Below are positions 37,610-48,418 of a stretch of DNA of 64,000 nucleotides, in pieces. Numbering within the stretch: the stretch's first letter is position 1; each line of letters opens with the position of its first letter. The notes beneath the pieces are model-generated. The model saw nothing but the letters and a program-made list of their open reading frames with translations. It had not been told where the DNA came from and did no database searches. Both the position numbers and the translations under genes were made by a program. The stretch covers positions 1,860,001 to 1,924,000 of the forward strand of contig BCHU01000003.1 of NCBI GenBank assembly GCA_001599715.1, read 5' to 3'. This DNA comes from Phaeotremella fagi. Its lineage: Eukaryota; Basidiomycota; Tremellomycetes; Tremellales; Phaeotremellaceae.

Positions 37610-38590
37610 TCAAGCCTTTAATCTCTGTTCTCTAAGAGAGCCAAGGGCCATTTTGCCTGTATAAGCGGATACGATTGAAAGGACGAGGAAGGGAGGTAAG
37701 AACTGATGGATTGGGATCAGTTTGCGACGCGCCCTTTCACATAATAGCGACTCACTTGATACAACTTCCATCCCACCCAGTACGTAAAGATCAAACCCTC
37801 CAAACCGACCAACGTTAAAAGGAAAACATAAGCTGACGAAGGTGGGGCTTTGAATCGTAGATTCAAACGGGAGGACTGTGAATTGAAAGTCAGTATTGAA
37901 CATCAACCAAGCAACATACAAGAGCCAATAAGATAGTCCAAGGCGAAAGCGCGATAACAGTTCCAACAGCTGATTTCAACGCGCCAACGGATTTCTCCTC
38001 TTCTCTGAACGTGTGGAAAAGTTCTTGTTGAGCTTGGAACGCTGGTTCGCCTGTTCTTGGAGGGAGATCGTGTTTTTGTCGAACTGGTTTGGTGGTTGGG
38101 AGGGTAACTTCTCCGATTGGGTAGGAGAAGGTGTCTGTGCCCGAGGAGAGAAGGAGGGTGAGTTTGTTGGTACCTTGTAGGGAACCTGGTTTGGATGCGT
38201 TCTACAAGTTGTGTCAGTGAGATTAAACGATGGGGATTTAAGACAACATACGATTACGAACGATGCCTTCCCGTTTGGTTTTACAGAAACTGGAAGACTG
38301 ATTTCAGATGTTGGCGATTCGAAAAGTAAATGAGCTTGATTAGGTATAGATGGTGGATCAAGAGTGAACGATAACTTGAATGTTGATCCAGCGTTGAGGT
38401 TAGTTGCGGGAATGGATGTAGGTGGATCAAGACTGAAGCTAAGTGACAATTCAAAGGGTACAACTTACGTGTAAGAAGCGTCTTTACCGTCTGACGACGA
38501 GATTGAAATTTTTCCTTGCTTTATTGAGAGAGCCTGAGCTGATAGAGTGATTAGAGCAGCTGCGAGAGCATACTTTGAGCAGAACAACAT
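37610..38590 (-). CDS. SWP1: Oligosaccharyltransferase subunit, ribophorin II / Swp1
   Basis: Subunit of the ER oligosaccharyltransferase for N-glycosylation. Exons 38590..38469, 38438..38252, 38201..37920, 37875..37756, 37702..37610; 267 aa. A signal peptide (AAALITLSAQA) precedes a beta-rich lumenal domain, and three C-terminal hydrophobic segments follow (VGTVIALSPWTILLALL, APPSSAYVFLLTLVGLEGLI, FLPPFLVLSIVSAYTG), with YWVGWKLYQ and a basic cytosolic end LREQRLKA. This membrane half is the best-conserved part of the family. Intron 1 is only 30 nt (38468..38439; GTAAGT donor, ACTTAG acceptor), the shortest in the window. The gene is embedded among secreted accessory genes but is a conserved housekeeping gene. 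Confidence 0.9.
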
Positions 38591-39084
38591 GATGAATTTG
38601 AATGATAAAATGAGAAGAAACAAGGCGAGAAAGATAGAAAATAGATGCGTTGTAACAACTGCGAAGAACAACGTGGCAGGCAACGGATAGATGTGGATCT
38701 CCGCGTTTATGAGGCAACTTTGGGAAAAGGAAAAAGAGTCAAAATCTCATGTTCATGTGAATGGGATGAGGTCGACTAGCCATCAGGACCACTACTGCCT
38801 GTTGTGATCACGACACTGCATAAGAATCAAGTTCCCAAAAGTTGTACCTAACGAATATTGAGCTAAGTGCTCCTAAGCCACACAGAAAATGCGTCCAGGC
38901 GGTGAGTTGAAATAAAGCCCTGATCTTCTACCTTTGCGAAACTTCTTCTTGCTAGGTGCAACTGCGTATGTGGTAGTTGTCTGAAAATTGCATCACAATG
39001 TATAGAACTTGGAGAGTTGACAGGGAATTGGGATCAATGACGTGCATCACCTCATGTCTCACTTCCCACAATTTCCGAGATTGC
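38591..39084. other. Intergenic, SWP1 promoter region
   Basis: 494 bases upstream of SWP1 and downstream of the divergent secreted gene; nothing recognisable. Confidence 0.5.
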
Positions 39085-39604
39085 TTAACAAACAACCGCC
39101 GTGCTTTCGCAATAATGATCGTCATCATCCTCAGTGAGAGTACCTGTTGACGTCGAGTAGAAACAACCGTTCTGAGTTGAAGTGGACGTCTGTCATTGCC
39201 AGATCAATGTTTTGCCTTCATAATGGGGCGCCCTCCACAGGGTCGACCAATCAGAAATAACTCACAGATGTATGATCGTAGCTGAGAAAGAAGAATACAA
39301 TTAGCATTCACTAAATATTGGAAAAAGGAAAATTAAACTCTACTTACTAACAATTGGCAGACCCTACACTATACGTTGTAGAAGCGTCAAGCACATAACC
39401 ACCTGTATCGGTTGATGGACAGCAGTAGGTCGATACTGAAGAAGGATCTGTTCGTTTTTTACGAGTTACACTGGCGTTTTGTCTGGATACTATCGATGCT
39501 CGGGTTTCTTGTTTGAGTATTGGTGAGCGTGTTATTTGAGTGCTTTCTTGTGCAGCTACAGAGAAGGCGAAGAGGGTGAGTGAAAGTAGAATTATGGAAC
39601 GCAT
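39085..39604 (-). CDS. Divergent secreted six-cysteine protein D
   Basis: 125 aa from exons 39604..39348, 39281..39266, 39189..39085. Signal peptide MRSIILLSLTLFAFSVAA, then a longer propeptide with several basic residues ending in Lys-Lys-Arg at 49-51. The core has six Cys: STYCCPST, SANCYYD, NGCFYSTSTGTL, HYCEST and a terminal VVC. The first intron splits the same codon (TA|C) after the third Cys as in genes A, B and C, which supports homology despite low sequence similarity. Exon 2 is 16 nt (YDHTS). It lacks the C-terminal IRARQFKF tail. A run of four Asp follows the fourth Cys. Function unknown. Confidence 0.8.
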
Positions 39605-40078
39605 GTTTGGAATTGACTGTAGGATGAAGATATCTGAAAGCTCGATGGGAGTATTAAGGGAGCATTAATTACCATGTATTTCGAGCTCGCTTTACTTTTT
39701 GTTACTCAAGGGGACACTTGTTTTACGACCCAAGCTCTACAAATCGGCTCAGTCTCCTATTTTACTATTTTGAGGTGCTGTGCATAAGCCACAAGCCATC
39801 GCCACAAATAGATCTCAAGGAAGGTCATCATGTACTGTAGTCTGACCTTGGCGGTCCTCAGGGAACAGAGGTGGTGAATTTTGTAAATTATTTTACTTAC
39901 ACAATCCTCAGGAGGTACAGTAGGGACAGATCAACAGAATACGTAGATTTACTCCTTTTTCTGGATAGTTACTGCGAGTGAGTACCAATCGACACTCGAG
40001 ATTGATTGGGCCCTCGTCAGGGGGTGATGAGCTACTTGAAACGAGGAACGATTGCATCCGAGATTTGCGCAACAGATT
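39605..40078. other. Intergenic, promoter of gene D
   Basis: 474 bases between gene D and the next gene on the same strand; nothing recognisable. Confidence 0.5.
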
Positions 40079-40655
40079 TTACTTTTGAGCCTCTTTCCAC
40101 TCTTGGATCGCTTTATCCGCAGCCTTCGCTCTAATAAGAAGTCAGTCATGTATATCTGTAACACCCCTGCCGACACTCACGCTTCCAAACCTCTGGGAAA
40201 GCCACAATACCCTGAAATCGTAAGTTATCGTCTAATCTTCTCTGACTCACCTGTGATCATAAGCAATGCTTCTTGAATTTCAGTCTCTGTTAAACCATTA
40301 TTCAAACCCCCTTTGACATGCGAGCTTAACTGATTGACTTGACCCATAGCTGCACAGATCCTTGAACAAGTCAGGATATGAAAACAACGACACCTACGTC
40401 ATTACCACTAAACTCCTTTGTTTCCATTCCAATCCAGGTCTTGACCATAGCCCGTCGAACGCATTTCGAGTAACAAAATCTTGAGTAGGTTGAACGAACG
40501 GTGTAATACTTGCTAGATAGGTATCCGCTGCTGGTCCAGTTAGTTTTCGGAGCTAAGGGGATGTAAGCTCGGTTTTCAGGTGCGAAGCTTACATTTTCAA
40601 TACCGGACTGTTTGAGGACTTCTCGTGCTGCTTCTATTTCTTGTTGAGATGGCAT
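40079..40655 (-). CDS. Carboxymuconolactone decarboxylase-like (AhpD-fold) protein
   Basis: 136 aa from exons 40655..40593, 40552..40398, 40360..40251, 40211..40181, 40130..40079. It matches the small CMD family: an N-terminal helix, WSRPGLEWKQRSLVVMTICAAM, then SSHVKGGLNNGLTETEIQEA and ITGYCGFPRGLEA. Two Cys are present, in TICAAM and GYCGFP, but not as the AhpD CxxC pair, so it is more likely a decarboxylase/lactonase-like member than a peroxidase partner. Exon 3 starts at 40360, which restores MTICAAMGQ. Introns are 37-50 nt. No signal peptide. It may act in aromatic catabolism, but no pathway genes are adjacent. Confidence 0.88.
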
Positions 40656-41032
40656 TTTTATAGCAAGGATAAAGAAATGAATTTGTTGGTGGTACTGACT
40701 ATTTGTAGGCGTGAGTTGGTGGAGGGGGAGGTGGAGGTGTTCTTTAGAGTTTCCGAGGTTTATCCTGATGCCACTTGCATTGCCACAGCGACTTTACGAA
40801 AATAATCTCAAGTGGAAGGAAGTCTCAAATGTATATTTTCTGGTAGACAATGATATATAGGGAGGTCTCAACCAATCAAGAAGTGCATCATAAGCCCTGA
40901 CACTCGCCCAAATATTTTGTGCATCTCTCCTTAACGACCCCTACATATCAAACACCGCATCAAGTTGACCTTCATCTTCCTAACAGCCCCGCAACAAGAA
41001 TCACCGAACCTAAGTTTACTGACCTGAGTTTA
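40656..41032. other. Intergenic
   Basis: 377 bases with the promoter of the CMD-like gene and the 3' end of the first collar gene; nothing further seen. Confidence 0.5.
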
Positions 41033-41791
41033 CTATGGTCTTGTTGGATATGTTCCAGAAACAGCGATACAATAGGTCATTGCGAGGAAAGGTTGTTGGG
41101 GGAGAACAGCTGTACCGACGACTGGGATGTTGAGGGGAAGAGCTTGACCACCGGTAGTGTCACCACTGACAGTGACGGAACCTGTAGGAACAACAGACAC
41201 AGTTTGGGAACCACCGTTAACAGTCACGGAAGAAGCACCAAGACCTGCAGAGAAGATTTGAGCTTCTCCTTGACCTGAGGCAGGTCCTTGGACGAGATAA
41301 CCGCCGTTGGCAGCACCAACGCCACCTGGACCGGCACCTATTGGAATTTGGTTGACGAAAGTGCCGGATGAAGATTGTCCAGAGAATGTTGCTGGGTGAG
41401 TGTGAGCTGGTAAGTTGGTTGAAGCGATGACGGCGGAACCAACAGCACTGAGACCCTTGCCGGTGAGCGGTAGACTGTACGAACCTCCAGCTTGACCAAA
41501 TGTAGTTATTGGCAGACCAGCAGATTGACCAAAGTTGGTCGGGAAGCGACCGATAAGATTGGGAACACCAAATGTAGTTCCAGCGGTACCACCGTAGGTG
41601 TTACCCACAATAGCGTAAAGAGGGGTGTAGGCTTGGATAGAGTACACTGCCCCGTTACACATCACCCAACCGTCGGGACAGTAGTTACCGGCGAAGAGCA
41701 TGATTTGACCAACATAAGGGTCAACTTGAGCTTGGACCGAGTGAAGGGAAGCACCGAGGCCGAGAAGAAGGATGGTCAATTTGGAGAGCAT
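41033..41791 (-). CDS. Secreted tail-collar (MdpB-type) protein 1, probable bacterial origin
   Basis: Intronless, 252 aa. A signal peptide (LTILLLGLGASLHSVQA) is followed by a complete microcystin-dependent-protein / phage tail-collar domain: VGQIMLFAGNYCPDGWVMC, NGAVYSIQAYTPLYAIVG, NTYGGTAGTTFGVPNLIGRF, then a central spacer with LPAHTHPATFSG. Later come Gly/Ser/Thr-rich beta repeats and the family end motif FLAMTYCIAVSGTYPTRP. The family is overwhelmingly bacterial and phage. Lack of introns, against several per kilobase in neighbouring genes, supports horizontal acquisition, as does the second copy next door. Two Cys close to the N-terminus (CPDGWVMC) could form a disulfide. Extracellular location is inferred; function unknown. 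Contamination is unlikely because it lies between intron-bearing fungal genes. Confidence 0.88.
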   Translation of the reverse strand: MLSKLTILLLGLGASLHSVQAQVDPYVGQIMLFAGNYCPDGWVMCNGAVYSIQAYTPLYAIVGNTYGGTAGTTFGVPNLIGRFPTNFGQSAGLPITTFGQAGGSYSLPLTGKGLSAVGSAVIASTNLPAHTHPATFSGQSSSGTFVNQIPIGAGPGGVGAANGGYLVQGPASGQGEAQIFSAGLGASSVTVNGGSQTVSVVPTGSVTVSGDTTGGQALPLNIPVVGTAVLPQQPFLAMTYCIAVSGTYPTRP

Positions 41792-42529
41792 TGCGGTTGA
41801 ATGTTGGTTCTGTTTTTGGGGGATGAGTGAGATGTCATCTCAAACAAGCCATATATATATGTCTTTTCCACAGACGAAGGCTTACCATAAGCAGAAAGCT
41901 ACAAACTTTGTCCGGTTCTAGTATTGACTGATTCAAAAAAAGACGCAGAATGCCACCTCAATCTTATCAATGTTTCAGGTCGTTTTGAGGGATTCCAGTG
42001 ATGACCGAATACTGAGTATGGAGATGTACGTCCATTTGGGACACCAGGAACTTTGGCGAAATCTTATTTTAGAAGTTAAGGTTTGTAGTCAGCCAACGAG
42101 TGTTGCCGTTTTTATGGCGTCAATCCTGAGAAGGAACAGTGCCTAGGTATACCTATTTTGGGATGTTTGGACGAGAACAACGTTGGACCAATGCATGGCT
42201 GGTTGAGAGGAGGATACATGCATATCGAATGGTCACAGACTCACTTATCACAGGCGATATGCTAACTGCATACCGAGAATAAAGTTATAACCATGGCCGA
42301 GGAACGGTTTGTGATCTTGACCGGGAGAGTCACTCGCCCTGTGCTAAACGTACCTCGGTGCTGGCGTCATTATGCTGTAAAGAATTTTATGGCAACACAG
42401 TCTTACAACGACCTAGTGGCAGCAACACAATGCATTGTCCAGTGGCACGACGAACCAAATATCCACAAAACCATCCTACTCCAACAATTTATCACTCTGA
42501 CCAAAATGTGAACCTTCTCTAAACCTAAC
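41792..42529. other. Intergenic between the two tail-collar genes
   Basis: 738 bases. A TATA-like CATATATATATG lies at about 41851-41861, 60-70 bp upstream of collar gene 1. The short + strand frame at 42293..42511 has no support. No repeat or mobile-element end recognised. Confidence 0.55.
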
Positions 42530-43285
42530 CTAATTTCGGGATGGGAAGATACCTTGGGTACAGATTAGGTAGTTGATAGCCAGGTAAGGGGGTTCTACGT
42601 TGTTCACACTACCGCGAGCGTTGAGATTTACATTGATTGGAGCACCAGAACCTGTGCTTGCTTGAACGACAACGTTTCCAGATGCTTGGGTACTGATAGA
42701 TTGAGTACCACCGTTGATGTTGACAGTTGAACCGGTAGTTCCAGCGGGTTGGAAGATGTTCGCTTGACCTGCACCGGAACCTTGACCTTGGGAGAGGAAA
42801 CTGTTATCTGCCGCTTGTGGGACACCACCAGTTTTTAGAACTGGGATTTTACTGTCGAACGTGCTAGTGACAGTCGTACCAGCAAAACTAGCCCCGTGGG
42901 TATGAGGAGGAAGGTTGTCGACTCCAACAGTGATTGAACCGGAGGCTACAACGTTACCAGGGATGATTGTACCAGTGTAAGCACCAGCCATTTGGCCAAG
43001 GAAGTATGGGTTGAGGCCTGGCCCTTGGCCAGCACCGATAGGAAAACGACTTTGTAGATTGGGGAGAGCAAAATTTTGGACTCCATTACCACCGTAGGTA
43101 ACACCGAGTATAGAGAAGAGAGCTTGGTTCTGAGCAATGGGTATAAGTTGACCTTTACAAAACATGTAGTTTGTAGGTTCAAAGTTACCAGCCCAAGGTA
43201 TGATGGTTCCCATTAGACATTGAGCATTGATACTGTGAAGGCACAGAGAGAGTACAGCAAGGTAGGAAAAGAGTTTGAAAGACAT
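42530..43285 (-). CDS. Secreted tail-collar (MdpB-type) protein 2
   Basis: Intronless, 251 aa from the ATG at 43285; a longer upstream reading to 43420 has no signal peptide at its start and was rejected. Signal peptide LFSYLAVLSLCLHSINA, then CLMGTIIPWAGNFEP, GQLIPIAQNQALFSILG, VTYGGNGVQNFALPNLQSRF, GAGQGPGLNPYFLGQMAG, VDNLPPHTHGASFAG and the end motif YLAINYLICTQGIFPSRN. These blocks follow bacterial MdpB proteins closely, more so than copy 1. The two copies share order and length but have diverged widely, so duplication is old or there were two acquisitions. Same strand as copy 1. Its divergent promoter is shared with the two-module secreted gene at 44022. Confidence 0.9.
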   Translation of the reverse strand: MSFKLFSYLAVLSLCLHSINAQCLMGTIIPWAGNFEPTNYMFCKGQLIPIAQNQALFSILGVTYGGNGVQNFALPNLQSRFPIGAGQGPGLNPYFLGQMAGAYTGTIIPGNVVASGSITVGVDNLPPHTHGASFAGTTVTSTFDSKIPVLKTGGVPQAADNSFLSQGQGSGAGQANIFQPAGTTGSTVNINGGTQSISTQASGNVVVQASTGSGAPINVNLNARGSVNNVEPPYLAINYLICTQGIFPSRN

Positions 43286-44021
43286 GTCTTTGGATTTGGT
43301 GTGGGTGGGTGGTGAAATGATGGGGGGGGGGAAAGAAATACTGTCGCCAGACAGACACATTATAAGCGTCTTCCAAGATGGCATGGGAAGCGCTGTCTCA
43401 GAACAACTGTCTTTTACCAAAAGAGTTGGATTAATTGATCAGCATCTCCATGAATTGATTGAGGCGTAAAGAATGCGGGAGACGGGCAGAGCCAAGATTC
43501 TACATCTCAAATCCGGTCACATATGCCAAGAAATTGGATGTATATTTATGAATTGATCTAATTGCTGCTACTCATTCAGTTGGTTTTGATTGAATCACTG
43601 GAAACGATAGTCATGTTATTTTTATGTAACTTATAGAATGCTCATAACAACAAACGCAGAGTGCTAACCTACGTACATACTGATCAAACTTTAATCTGAC
43701 TGAATGCTTATTTAGTTTACCCTTAACATTCCTGACACTGGCACCTCTGCTCCGTGGCCCATGACACTGGAACCGAATTATTTTAACCCTGTGCCGTTCC
43801 ACCAATTCGCTTAGTCCCCGGTTTGGGATTGCATTGAGTTTGGGACCCTTTGTCCAATGTCAACAACCAAAAGTTGGAACAAAAAACTCGAAAACTCTTT
43901 TTTTTGACGTTACCTACTGATGGTCATGTCGTCAAGTTGACAGCCTTTTGACTAAGATACATAATGCATAAGGTCATCATCATGCCCCCTAAGTTCTTGC
44001 ATTCTCACTCCCTCACTCACC
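43286..44021. promoter_or_regulatory. Divergent promoter, tail-collar gene 2 / two-module secreted gene
   Basis: 736 bases between two secreted-protein genes read outward. A G-run (GGGGGGGGG, about 43322-43330) lies 40 bp upstream of the collar start. The TATA-like ACATTATAAGCG (about 43359) fits the collar gene. No gene seen. Confidence 0.5.
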
Positions 44022-45105
44022 ATGACCAGACTCGTTTTATTCACCGTTATTGCTCTATCGGCCTCTGCTCTGGCTGCAACTGTCGGTTCCAAGGGTTCTG
44101 AAACGTACACATGTCCCGATCGTGAGACGATGGAAATAGCTTACTACGACTATTGTGAGTGGCTTCTTGGGGTCAAACTCATAGGTCACTAGGTGCACCA
44201 AGTGTTGGCGCAGCAAATCTAAATGCGATATCGTCCTACGTTGATTATAGTCACACAACTCCTGTCAATTACAAGACCGTGAATAATAATGATTTCGCGT
44301 TGGGTTGTGGGTACACAGACGGAACAGTGAGTCAAGCGAAAGACATATACCTAACGCTTGTAGACCTCATTCATTTGTGTATACTATGCTGGAGGTGGCG
44401 TAAGTTGAACGATTAGAGCTATCTGTTGACCCATGTAGTCACCTTTAACGCTCAGTCAATCAGACAGTTCTAGTACAAGCTGCCCTGCTGCACCTGGAGT
44501 TACACCTCAACCGTCTCCAGGAGTTAATTATCGAAAAAAGAGAGCAAACACGGGGATAAGTAAGTTGCTAAAAACGCGGCGCCTGCAGAGGGCGTCGCCA
44601 CGCAATCGTACTAGCGCTTATTGCTCTTACCTGCAGCTCCGCTGTTCACCTGCCCATTCACAAGTGACAATCCATCGTATTACATGACCGGCGTCGAGAT
44701 CGATGGTGGACAGTTTTCTGCTGATTACGATGGAGGAAATGGAGGGGCTACCAGCAATCTGTTTTATACATGTACCATGGGTGAAGGGACCGATCTGACA
44801 GGTTGCTACTATACTCAGGTAAGTGTTGCGTTGTTTTCAGGCTGCATTTTCTGACCAAAATACAGGATGCCAGCGGTGCTATCACCTATCAAGGTTTTTC
44901 CTATGATGGAACAGAAGCAATCTGTCCATCAACGTTATGTTCCGCGGTGAAGACTGGATCCAATAACATGAGAAGAAACGTTTTCATGGAGGGCGCAGAA
45001 TCCACTTTGAAAAGACGTCAAGTTGATACCGGACTCTTGAGAGATAAACTTAGAAGCAGGATGGAGAACGGTTCTGTGAACGGGGCTAGGAAATTGAGGA
45101 GGTAG
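44022..45105 (+). CDS. Secreted two-module cysteine-rich protein
   Basis: 269 aa from exons 44022..44154, 44193..44326, 44439..44559, 44637..44818, 44866..45105. Signal peptide TRLVLFTVIALSASALA. Module 1: YTCPDRET, DYCAPS, GCGYTDGT, TSCPAAPG. After a Lys/Arg stretch (YRKKRANTG), module 2: LFTCPFTSD, FYTCTMG, GCYYTQDASG, AICPSTLC. Both follow the order C-P, C, G-C-x-Y, C-P of the six-cysteine proteins A to D, so this looks like a tandem fusion of the same module. The basic RKKR between modules is a plausible Kex2 site that could separate them. The C-terminal 45 residues are basic and helical (TLKRRQVDTG, LRDKLRSRME). The exon 2-3 intron (112 nt) is the least certain junction. Confidence 0.8.
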
Positions 45106-45361
45106 TTGGTGTCATTGGGTTTTATGATTTTAACGATAGAACGGACACTTTGTACGATTTCGTAATGTACATTCTCATCATACATGTTTCAGAGCAGGAT
45201 GACGATCAAGGGTCTTCGCCGTTAGTCCGTACACACAACCATGTCCTCGAGACACATGTAGCCCGCTCTGTTCGGATTTTGCGATGAAAGGAGCTCAGTT
45301 AGCAAAGGGTGCTTACTATCTTTCAAAACAGTAATGTTTTTCGCTATTCTGACACCAAAAA

Positions 45362-46508
45362 ATGAATAAACTTCTCGACAATTCTTTCGCGCCCATTGCT
45401 TTGACTCTAATGGGAGACCTTTCATTTGTGGTTATGGAAGGGTTAGTGCAATATTTGGAAAGAGTACACAGTGTTCCAGCCGGGCAAGTAGTTTTGGGTC
45501 GAATGGTGAGCTTAAAAGCTTTTACAATCGAGTTCAGTCTTTCTAGGTCACCTCCTGACACTTTGCAGATCCTCTCTCTTGTTATATCCCTCATACTCGG
45601 AGGGAATCTTTTGAATGGTTCTGCATTGAATTGGGCAAGAGGGTTTACAAGCCTTATCAGCGTATCTTGTATCTTCATCTCATACAAATATATCAGTCTT
45701 TCCGAAGGGTTATCAATCTATCATCTTAAACCGGTTCCAGTGGCGATTTTGTGTTGGTACTTTCTGAAAGAGGATATCGCGAAAAGGCAAATCATCGCTT
45801 GCGGTGAGTATTGATCTTGCGAGGGGACACTGACATGTCGAAGTGGTCTCGATCGGGGCTGTATTGTTGATCTATCAACCAGGGTTTCAACCTTCATTTG
45901 GATACGTCGTGGCGATATTGAGTATGCTGACCGGGGCGGGTACAAGTAAGTGATTTTCGAATAGCGTTGCTTACACTTCTAGCGTTCTTGTTGAGACAGA
46001 TCGATTGCCCTGTTCAAACTACTTTGGCAATTTATTCAGTCTGCTCGATTATCTTTTCACCCGTGTAAGCTTAGATGGAGGATCAGGAACTGAAGACAGT
46101 GTGATCTACTTGGAAACAGAACCCATCCAGTACAAACTCCCGGTAGTAGCTTGGCTAGCCTTCATTGTTTTAGTGGTACGTCTGACGGTATAATGTAGTC
46201 CATCTGACTACGAACTATCACAGGCAACAGGGATTATGGGTCAGTTCTGCATGTGTCTAGCACTGCAAAAGGAGACTGGTACGAAAATCGCTCTGTTGGG
46301 ATACTTTCAAATCGTCTTCTCAATCGGTTTCCAGTTTCTCATGTGGCACACTGTACCGAGTGTGGTCAAGGTTATGGGCATGGGGATCATCATTGTTGCT
46401 GGAGTATTTGGTGCTATTGAGAAGTCGAAGGAGAGAACAGATTCGGCGAAGGAATACGAGTTGGTGGAGCAGAGAGACGATGAGGGTTCATCCCAGGAAA
46501 GTGTATGA
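45362..46508 (+). CDS. DMT/EamA-type multi-pass membrane transporter
   Basis: 307 aa from exons 45362..45505, 45569..45803, 45844..45945, 45983..46064, 46100..46175, 46224..46508. About nine or ten hydrophobic segments in two repeats, typical of the drug/metabolite transporter superfamily: LTLMGDLSFVVMEGLVQYL, VPAGQVVLGRM, LHKPVPVAI-type half-repeat end (read here as YHLKPVPVAILCWYFLKE), VVSIGAVLLIYQPGF, YVVAILSMLTGAGT, VVAWLAFIVLVATGIMGQF and a final VMGMGIIIVAGVFGAIEK. The C-terminus is charged and cytosolic. A 35-nt intron (46065..46099) resolves what otherwise looks like a frameshift. Related to SLC35G/EamA solute carriers; substrate unknown. Confidence 0.87.
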
Positions 46509-46758: not shown

Positions 46759-47367
46759 CTACTGGTTCTCTTTCGAAGACTGTTTGGATCCCTCCTCTGA
46801 AGTGAGGGGGGCTGCTGCGGAAACCCCACTCTTCTTGATTTGATCTTGCTCCTCCATCATCCTGGACAGCCCAGAGAACATGCCCTCGACCCCCGCCTTC
46901 AAATTTTTGGAGTAGTTTTGGAGAATTGAAAGAAACCCCGGTTCATCCCAATCTGGTTCGTCCTCATCTGAGCTCCCAAGATCTCCCCGGTATTCTACTA
47001 CTTTGAAATAATTGTTTCTGAAATCAGAAATGCCTGAATGACCTTTTGATCGGGAAAGTCTGAGACCGATTTTGCGAACACCAGACACAAGTAATGAAGC
47101 AGTCGAACGGTGGTGGAAATCTCTGGTGGCAAGATAGATGTCGATGGATTCGACCAGTTGGTTTGTTTCGTTCTCGATATCAACCATGATGTTAGAGAGC
47201 TGAAGGGTTTGCTCTTCACTAGGAGTGCCGGTGATCCCCAACTTTTCGTCAACGAAAGGGGTGAGGCGAGTAAATTGTTTGTCGAGATGATGGAGACGAG
47301 ACTTCATGTGCTGAGTGTAGTCTGATCTATCTTCAGCATATTGTGCAAGTAAGTAGGATGAATCCAT
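46759..47367 (-). CDS. Orphan intronless protein, tandem pair member 1
   Basis: 202 aa, single exon, start at the first ATG (MDSSYLLAQ). Mostly helical with heptad-like stretches: HMKSRLHHLDKQFTRLTPFV, LSNIMVDIENETNQLVESI, then HRSTASLLVSGVRKIG. An acidic SSDEDEPDWDEPGFL segment and LKAGVEGMFSGLSRMMEEQ follow, with a Ser/Lys-rich tail. No signal peptide or membrane segment. Paralogous along its whole length to the next gene. I do not recognise the family; it may be lineage-specific. The coiled-coil prediction is by eye. Confidence 0.75.
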   Translation of the reverse strand: MDSSYLLAQYAEDRSDYTQHMKSRLHHLDKQFTRLTPFVDEKLGITGTPSEEQTLQLSNIMVDIENETNQLVESIDIYLATRDFHHRSTASLLVSGVRKIGLRLSRSKGHSGISDFRNNYFKVVEYRGDLGSSDEDEPDWDEPGFLSILQNYSKNLKAGVEGMFSGLSRMMEEQDQIKKSGVSAAAPLTSEEGSKQSSKENQ

Positions 47368-47839: not shown

Positions 47840-48418
47840 CTAGTTTTTCGAAGAATTCATTTTGTCCCACTCCTTTGAAGAGATGGGAACTGCTCTCTTC
47901 CCAAGCAACCCTAATTGACTTTGGTCGTACTCCATCCGGAGCAGCTGACTGAACATCCCCTCGACCCGCAAATCGAGGTCTTGTGAACAGCTTCTGAGAG
48001 TTGACAGGAAGGTATTCCCCGGTTTCTCCCAATCTGACTCTTTTTGAGTTTGCTTCAAAACATCTTGCTGGACGATTTTAGCTTTGGTAAACCCATTCTT
48101 GAATTGAGAAGTGGCCGAATCATCCCATTCATGATGGGCACCGACATGGACCTTCCGAATACCAGAATCCAATAATGAACCAGTGGAACGACTGAATTTT
48201 TGGTTCTCGAGATAGATGTTGATGAATGAGACCAGCTCGTCTTTTGAATTCTTGATGGCATTCAAGATTGGACGGAGGTCTTTAGTTTGCTGCTTGGTAA
48301 GATCTCCGTTGGTCTCGTTTACCAGACTGGTAAGAGGCTCGAATGTTCGGTTGAGGCGATCGAGAAGCTCTGCGTGTTGTTTGTATTGTGATTGATTGTA
48401 TGACGGGAGGGTCGACAT
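47840..48418 (-). CDS. Orphan intronless protein, tandem pair member 2
   Basis: 192 aa, single exon (MSTLPSYNQSQYKQHAE). Aligned with member 1 it keeps LLDRLNRTFEPLTSLV, ILNAIKNSKDELVSFINIYL, RSTGSLLDSGIRKV, an acidic-aromatic ESDWEKPGNTFL, and LRVEGMFSQLLRME, but lacks the Asp/Glu cluster and has a shorter tail. No signal peptide. The common blocks suggest a helical bundle with a conserved SLL-SG-RK turn. Duplicated together with its flanks. Function unknown. Confidence 0.75.
   Translation of the reverse strand: MSTLPSYNQSQYKQHAELLDRLNRTFEPLTSLVNETNGDLTKQQTKDLRPILNAIKNSKDELVSFINIYLENQKFSRSTGSLLDSGIRKVHVGAHHEWDDSATSQFKNGFTKAKIVQQDVLKQTQKESDWEKPGNTFLSTLRSCSQDLDLRVEGMFSQLLRMEYDQSQLGLLGKRAVPISSKEWDKMNSSKN

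Follow-up and report, generated by a model that had tools for sequence, protein, structure and literature searches.

Collar proteins are known from the tails of phages, of which they form part, and from bacteria, where their role is unclear. Among the former is the short tail fibre protein gp12 of bacteriophage T4 (1ocy, 5iv5), a 527-residue part of the virion with a long fibre shaft, and the latter are the stand-alone collar proteins (MdpB-type, named 'microcystin-dependent protein' or 'tail fiber protein'), which span about 160-260 amino acids (aa) among the matches considered here. We describe two genes of this kind in a 64,000-nucleotide stretch (the window) of the genome of the fungus Phaeotremella fagi (contig BCHU01000003.1, positions 1,860,001 to 1,924,000), which belong to a set of five in the assembly and, judging by sequence comparison, most likely go back to horizontal transfer from bacteria, long ago, after which they were kept. 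Horizontal transfer into fungi is already known, as are collar proteins; an open-access literature search (titles and abstract starts) found no paper on a fungal collar protein or family. A eukaryotic parallel comes from a table of putative effectors of the rhizarian plant parasite Plasmodiophora brassicae, where Pb4_109755 is entered with a Phage Tail Collar Domain (PMC9530463). Compared by its description in that table, it is likewise a putative secreted eukaryotic collar-domain protein, but only one is listed there, of 191 aa.

The collar pair, its fold and its genomic kin

The two genes, C3a and C3b, are same-strand intronless open reading frames (ORFs) that a sequence-only reading of the window had already singled out, and both score about 84 bits against Pfam Collar (PF07484; curated cut-off 24). 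Their mapped parts are as follows.

41033..41791, minus strand: collar gene C3a, intronless ORF, 252 aa (ORF list; Pfam Collar 83.8 bits; own-genome search)
41729..41791, minus strand: C3a signal-peptide-like N-terminus, residues 1-21 (hydrophobic stretch; cleavage site by eye)
41540..41710, minus strand: C3a Collar domain, residues 28-84 (Pfam; AlphaFold confidence, pLDDT, with means of 84-96 per ten-residue block)
41396..41404, minus strand: C3a H-T-H (HxH) motif, residues 130-132 (from the alignment with gp12)
41036..41395, minus strand: C3a C-terminal half, residues 133-252, an inserted beta-rich region and closing strand (AlphaFold)
41851..41860, minus strand: TATA-like sequence lying some 60 bp upstream of C3a (sequence by eye; weak evidence)
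42530..43285, minus strand: collar gene C3b, intronless ORF, 251 aa from its ATG (ORF list; Pfam Collar 83.9 bits; own-genome search)
43223..43285, minus strand: C3b signal-peptide-like N-terminus, residues 1-21 (hydrophobic stretch; cleavage site by eye)
43040..43210, minus strand: C3b Collar domain, residues 26-82 (Pfam; AlphaFold)
42896..42904, minus strand: C3b H-T-H (HxH) motif, residues 128-130
42533..42895, minus strand: C3b C-terminal half, residues 131-251 (AlphaFold; structure match up to residue 245)

The longest ATG-initiated frame within positions 40001-44000 runs to 284 codons, against at most 190 in 500 mononucleotide shuffles, and the frame of C3b stays open further upstream of its ATG. 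Besides Collar, neither protein matched any Pfam family at E 0.001; an NCBIfam search returned no matches at E up to 1, and Rfam at its gathering threshold none across the window.

The monomers predicted by AlphaFold for C3a and C3b show the gp12 collar fold, a collar fold being what the sequence-only reading had anticipated, and the structure match to gp12 resumes at the C-terminal end, up to residue 246 in C3a and 245 in C3b, with a C-terminal strand that comes back to the base in both systems. The fungal proteins differ from gp12 in being shaftless and in carrying another inserted head. A landmark block that had been read as 'HTH' is indeed conserved, in all five genomic copies, but it is a His-x-His (HxH) residue motif, helix-turn-helix being excluded; in C3a it aligns with gp12 residues 445-447, and H130 and H132 are invariant in all 67 rows of alignment A2. 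With the bacterial stand-alone collar proteins the fungal set shares its size, the single N-terminal Collar domain, the HxH motif and a GxxPxR-like C-terminal end, and some of the bacterial proteins likewise look secreted; what sets the fungal proteins apart is that they form a clade of their own, in which P0003 may be a lone bacterial member, and comprise five copies with signal-peptide-like N-termini.

Two copies had been recognised in the window, and both stand, but a search of the whole assembly (22.6 Mb, 24 contigs) brought the number to five, each with an unbroken frame of 245-252 aa and a single, N-terminal Collar match above the Pfam cut-off. The window pair lies on contig C3 (1.97 Mb), about 66 kb from its end, and contigs C1 (2.41 Mb), C11 (1.06 Mb) and C15 (0.42 Mb) hold one copy apiece. 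The GxxPxR-like end is present in four of the five, including the window pair; the C11 copy terminates GIFPTLST. Identity to C3a is 37% for C3b, 52% for the C1 copy and 45% for each of the other two, and across the ten copy pairs nonsynonymous divergence is lower than synonymous (dN 0.42-0.73, dS 1.2-2.2); dS is near saturation, and what can be said of age is therefore limited to 'old and constrained'. At 37% identity the duplication proposed earlier is, for the window pair, rejected as a recent event; C3a is closest to the C1 copy, with ultrafast bootstrap (UFBoot) 100 and SH-like approximate likelihood ratio test (SH-aLRT) 81 in the 93-row tree described below. Among repeats of at least 25 bp in 38500-46000, there was a single 36-nt stretch, within both ORFs and 75% identical.

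Relatives among bacterial proteins

The first protein search gave 62 matches, headed by P0001 (46% identity over 98%), and a profile search gave 3386, with P0063 added from among 120 matches listed. P0001 (253 aa) and P0063 (251 aa), both from a single source, 'lgn', have signal-peptide-like N-termini that look eukaryotic by eye. From a scan of prokaryote genomes 80 loci were kept. Identity of C3a to the remaining 66 rows of alignment A2, fungal kin among them, lies at 29-51%. Over the kept columns the C15 copy is as close to a short database protein, P0139 (59-61% identity), as to members of its own clade, a pattern in keeping with a slowly evolving collar part. When the C-terminal half of the C15 copy served as query, one protein was found, P0173, which falls outside the fungal clade in the 93-row tree.

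Three trees were built, all midpoint-rooted and with moderate backbone support. The 93-row tree took rows of 195-262 aa, from which seven rows were dropped by name, namely the long-branch rows of the 177-row tree and their group (an eighth row so named lay outside the length range), and to which six short rows were added; a quick 177-row tree drew on database proteins 150-270 aa long that matched a [ST]x[FY]GG pattern no more than twice, plus 78 of the 80 locus ORFs; and the third included viral rows: of 80 viral loci fetched, 73 had a matching ORF, and 62 of these were used, trimmed to the matched stretch. Loci L183-L186 were used for contig sizes alone and left out of the trees. In the 93-row tree a single clade (UFBoot 99, SH-aLRT 98) unites the five copies with P0001, P0063 and P0003, and this eight-row clade is also kept, starred, in the other two. 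Its position in all three is among bacterial stand-alone collar proteins, which upholds the bacterial-type origin by horizontal transfer suggested from the window itself.

Proposed role and competing explanations

The five proteins are apparently exported, to judge from their N-termini. These are hydrophobic in every copy, weakly so in C11 (a narrow pass of a crude hydrophobicity test), and in C3a and C3b the signal-peptide-like stretch, which had been noted before, ends ...A-Q. The same test is passed by 30 of 170 bacterial rows, some of the passing starts being plain, without a signal. Several bacterial relatives nevertheless begin with signal-peptide-like stretches (P0149, P0151, L053, L072 and L034, the last from a Curvibacter metagenome-assembled genome), and secretion could therefore be inherited rather than gained by the proposed 'addition of eukaryotic secretion signals'. 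N-glycosylation sequons lend no support to an adaptation to secretion, three of the five copies having none and two having one.

The reading we favour, and hold as a whole to be rather probable, is that a bacterial stand-alone collar gene was gained once, was duplicated, and is exported in the form of trimeric, metal-bound binders. An ancestor of the fungus would have acquired one gene for a 'microcystin-dependent protein', with a bacterium as the presumed donor; the gene would then have duplicated and dispersed, leaving five diverged intronless copies on four contigs. Each protein would carry a signal peptide and leave the cell, outside which three chains may knit into a trimer whose putative base comprises the collar, which is conserved, and the C-terminal strand where it returns. 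A metal ion on the axis could be held by the six histidines of three HxH motifs, while an outer head, formed by the variable insert that is rich in beta structure (about residues 133-235), would bind a ligand, most likely a glycan, whether this sits on a microbe, on the substrate or in the wall of the fungus itself. That proteins built on the plan of a phage's host-gripping end were most likely taken from bacteria and kept suggests a bacterial gripping device in use outside the fungal cells; that this device binds glycans or microbes is a guess by analogy. If true, a secreted fungal collar family would be a clear case of a eukaryote adopting a bacterial or phage-type receptor-binding fold, and with proteins this short and intronless, trimerisation, metal content and ligand are directly testable, in experiments that could also reveal the role of the widespread bacterial stand-alone collar proteins.

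The collar proteins might instead help to build the wall, capsule or spore coat of the fungus itself rather than bind other organisms, an explanation that deserves weight even though we think it on balance unlikely. The same anatomy would suit it: as secreted trimers the proteins could cross-link glycans of the wall, and the diverged copies might each mark a different cell type. The search for wall-anchoring motifs extended to Pfam, where neither window ORF matched a further family. A bolder form of the binder proposal, and a more doubtful one, has a bacterial tail-collar protein turned into several secreted trimeric lectins, each pinned by a metal and with variable heads for different microbial surfaces. 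They would be a fungal counterpart of phage receptor-binding proteins, for holding, competing with or farming bacteria.

A less likely possibility again is that the collar family is older and wider among eukaryotes, and in part vertically inherited, rather than the outcome of one transfer into this lineage. P0001 and P0063, with signal sequences of eukaryotic appearance, group with the five, and the tabulated Plasmodiophora effector (PMC9530463) would fit such a family. On the other hand, all organism-naming rows are bacterial, with no eukaryote among the 62 matches of the first search or the 120 matches listed of 3386, although this is weak counter-evidence because the database may hold few eukaryotes. 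All five copies are, moreover, intronless in a genome that bears introns, its conserved genes being matched piecewise (in the window the Sec61 frame corresponds to just residues 120-328 of a chain of 480, while matches to Prp8 and IMPDH each come as several pieces with stops). The sequence-only reading had regarded an old fungal clade with introns as the finding that would speak against transfer: the synonymous divergence does make the clade old, but no intron-bearing Collar copy was found in this genome.

Improbable, too, is a source in a phage tail-fibre gene or a eukaryotic giant virus rather than in a bacterial stand-alone gene. Collar proteins do occur in phages, most matching PHROGs families are those of the tail (12 of 14 for one set and 8 of 9 for the other), and the BFVD matches include collar-domain proteins named in Cafeteria roenbergensis virus and Orpheovirus (E3T4R8, A0A2I2L5J8, A0A2I2L5Q4) as well as a collagen-repeat protein of Pithovirus; giant-virus collar proteins are possible as a bridge between phages and eukaryotes. 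With C15 as query, however, at least 80% of its length was covered in 14 of 72 matches among plasmid records and in none of 296 among phage records, and in the viral tree, which held no giant viruses, 54 of the 62 IMG/VR rows cluster together apart from the fungal clade and none falls within it. On these sequence comparisons, a phage source of the fungal collar genes is disfavoured.

We give a similarly small chance to the five copies stemming from two or more separate transfers. C3a and C3b are as dissimilar as described; in the free tree P0003 (203 aa), a protein that lacks a signal peptide, sits within the clade next to C3a and the C1 copy, a weakly supported placement (91/60) of a long branch; and the seven rows made up of the five copies, P0001 and P0063 are separate from all others in just 6% of 200 bootstrap trees. 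Against this, the approximately unbiased (AU) test rejects the monophyly neither of the five (p 0.763) nor of the seven (p 0.566), and both constrained trees score above the free search, that of the five by 21 log-likelihood units; a second transfer, which had been offered as an alternative to duplication, is thus not needed.

The collar copies show host-like codon use, with a GC content at third codon positions of 0.31-0.40 against 0.30-0.43 in six host exons and a pooled effective codon number of 45.1 against 44.5. Bacterial contamination or a chimeric contig, which bacterial-type intronless ORFs within an intron-bearing genome might bring to mind, is ruled out with near certainty, since all five copies differ and are spread over four contigs that extend far beyond them, with host-like codons and hydrophobic N-termini throughout.

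Genomic surroundings

Phage tail fibres are encoded beside virion genes; the collar pair instead shares its window with Sec23 and Sec61 frames, and none of the ten ORFs scanned in the window and in the C1 and C11 flanks matched a virion family. The C1 copy is adjoined by a carboxylesterase fragment and the C11 copy by a cysteine-rich repeat protein (L094:1450-1947, minus strand) with TNF-receptor-like and ephrin-receptor-like repeats, which looks secreted by eye; in the C15 flanks, whose ORFs were listed without a scan, no gene was identified. The frames on either side of the window pair (39347-39604, minus strand, and about 44023-45105, plus strand) have, again by eye, secreted-like starts and several cysteines, and the plus-strand one is apparently split by introns. 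A second adjacent pair of uninterrupted ORFs lies at 46759-47367 and 47840-48418 on the minus strand, encoding 202 and 192 aa that are 39% identical; neither has a Pfam match, and there is a weak third copy on contig C1. Among conserved genes of the assembly, an IMPDH exon is nearest to 4af0, from Cryptococcus neoformans (372.7 bits, against 305.8 for the next different protein), and a Prp8 exon, which scored best with human chains, was of no help in placing the host. The IMPDH result, several STE3 matches and the lack of any STE2 match, which does not prove that STE2 is missing, point to Basidiomycota. The matches to the STE3 pheromone receptor occur on contig C12 at 638 kb and on contig C3 at 584-591 kb, where several are clustered and perhaps mark a mating-type region.
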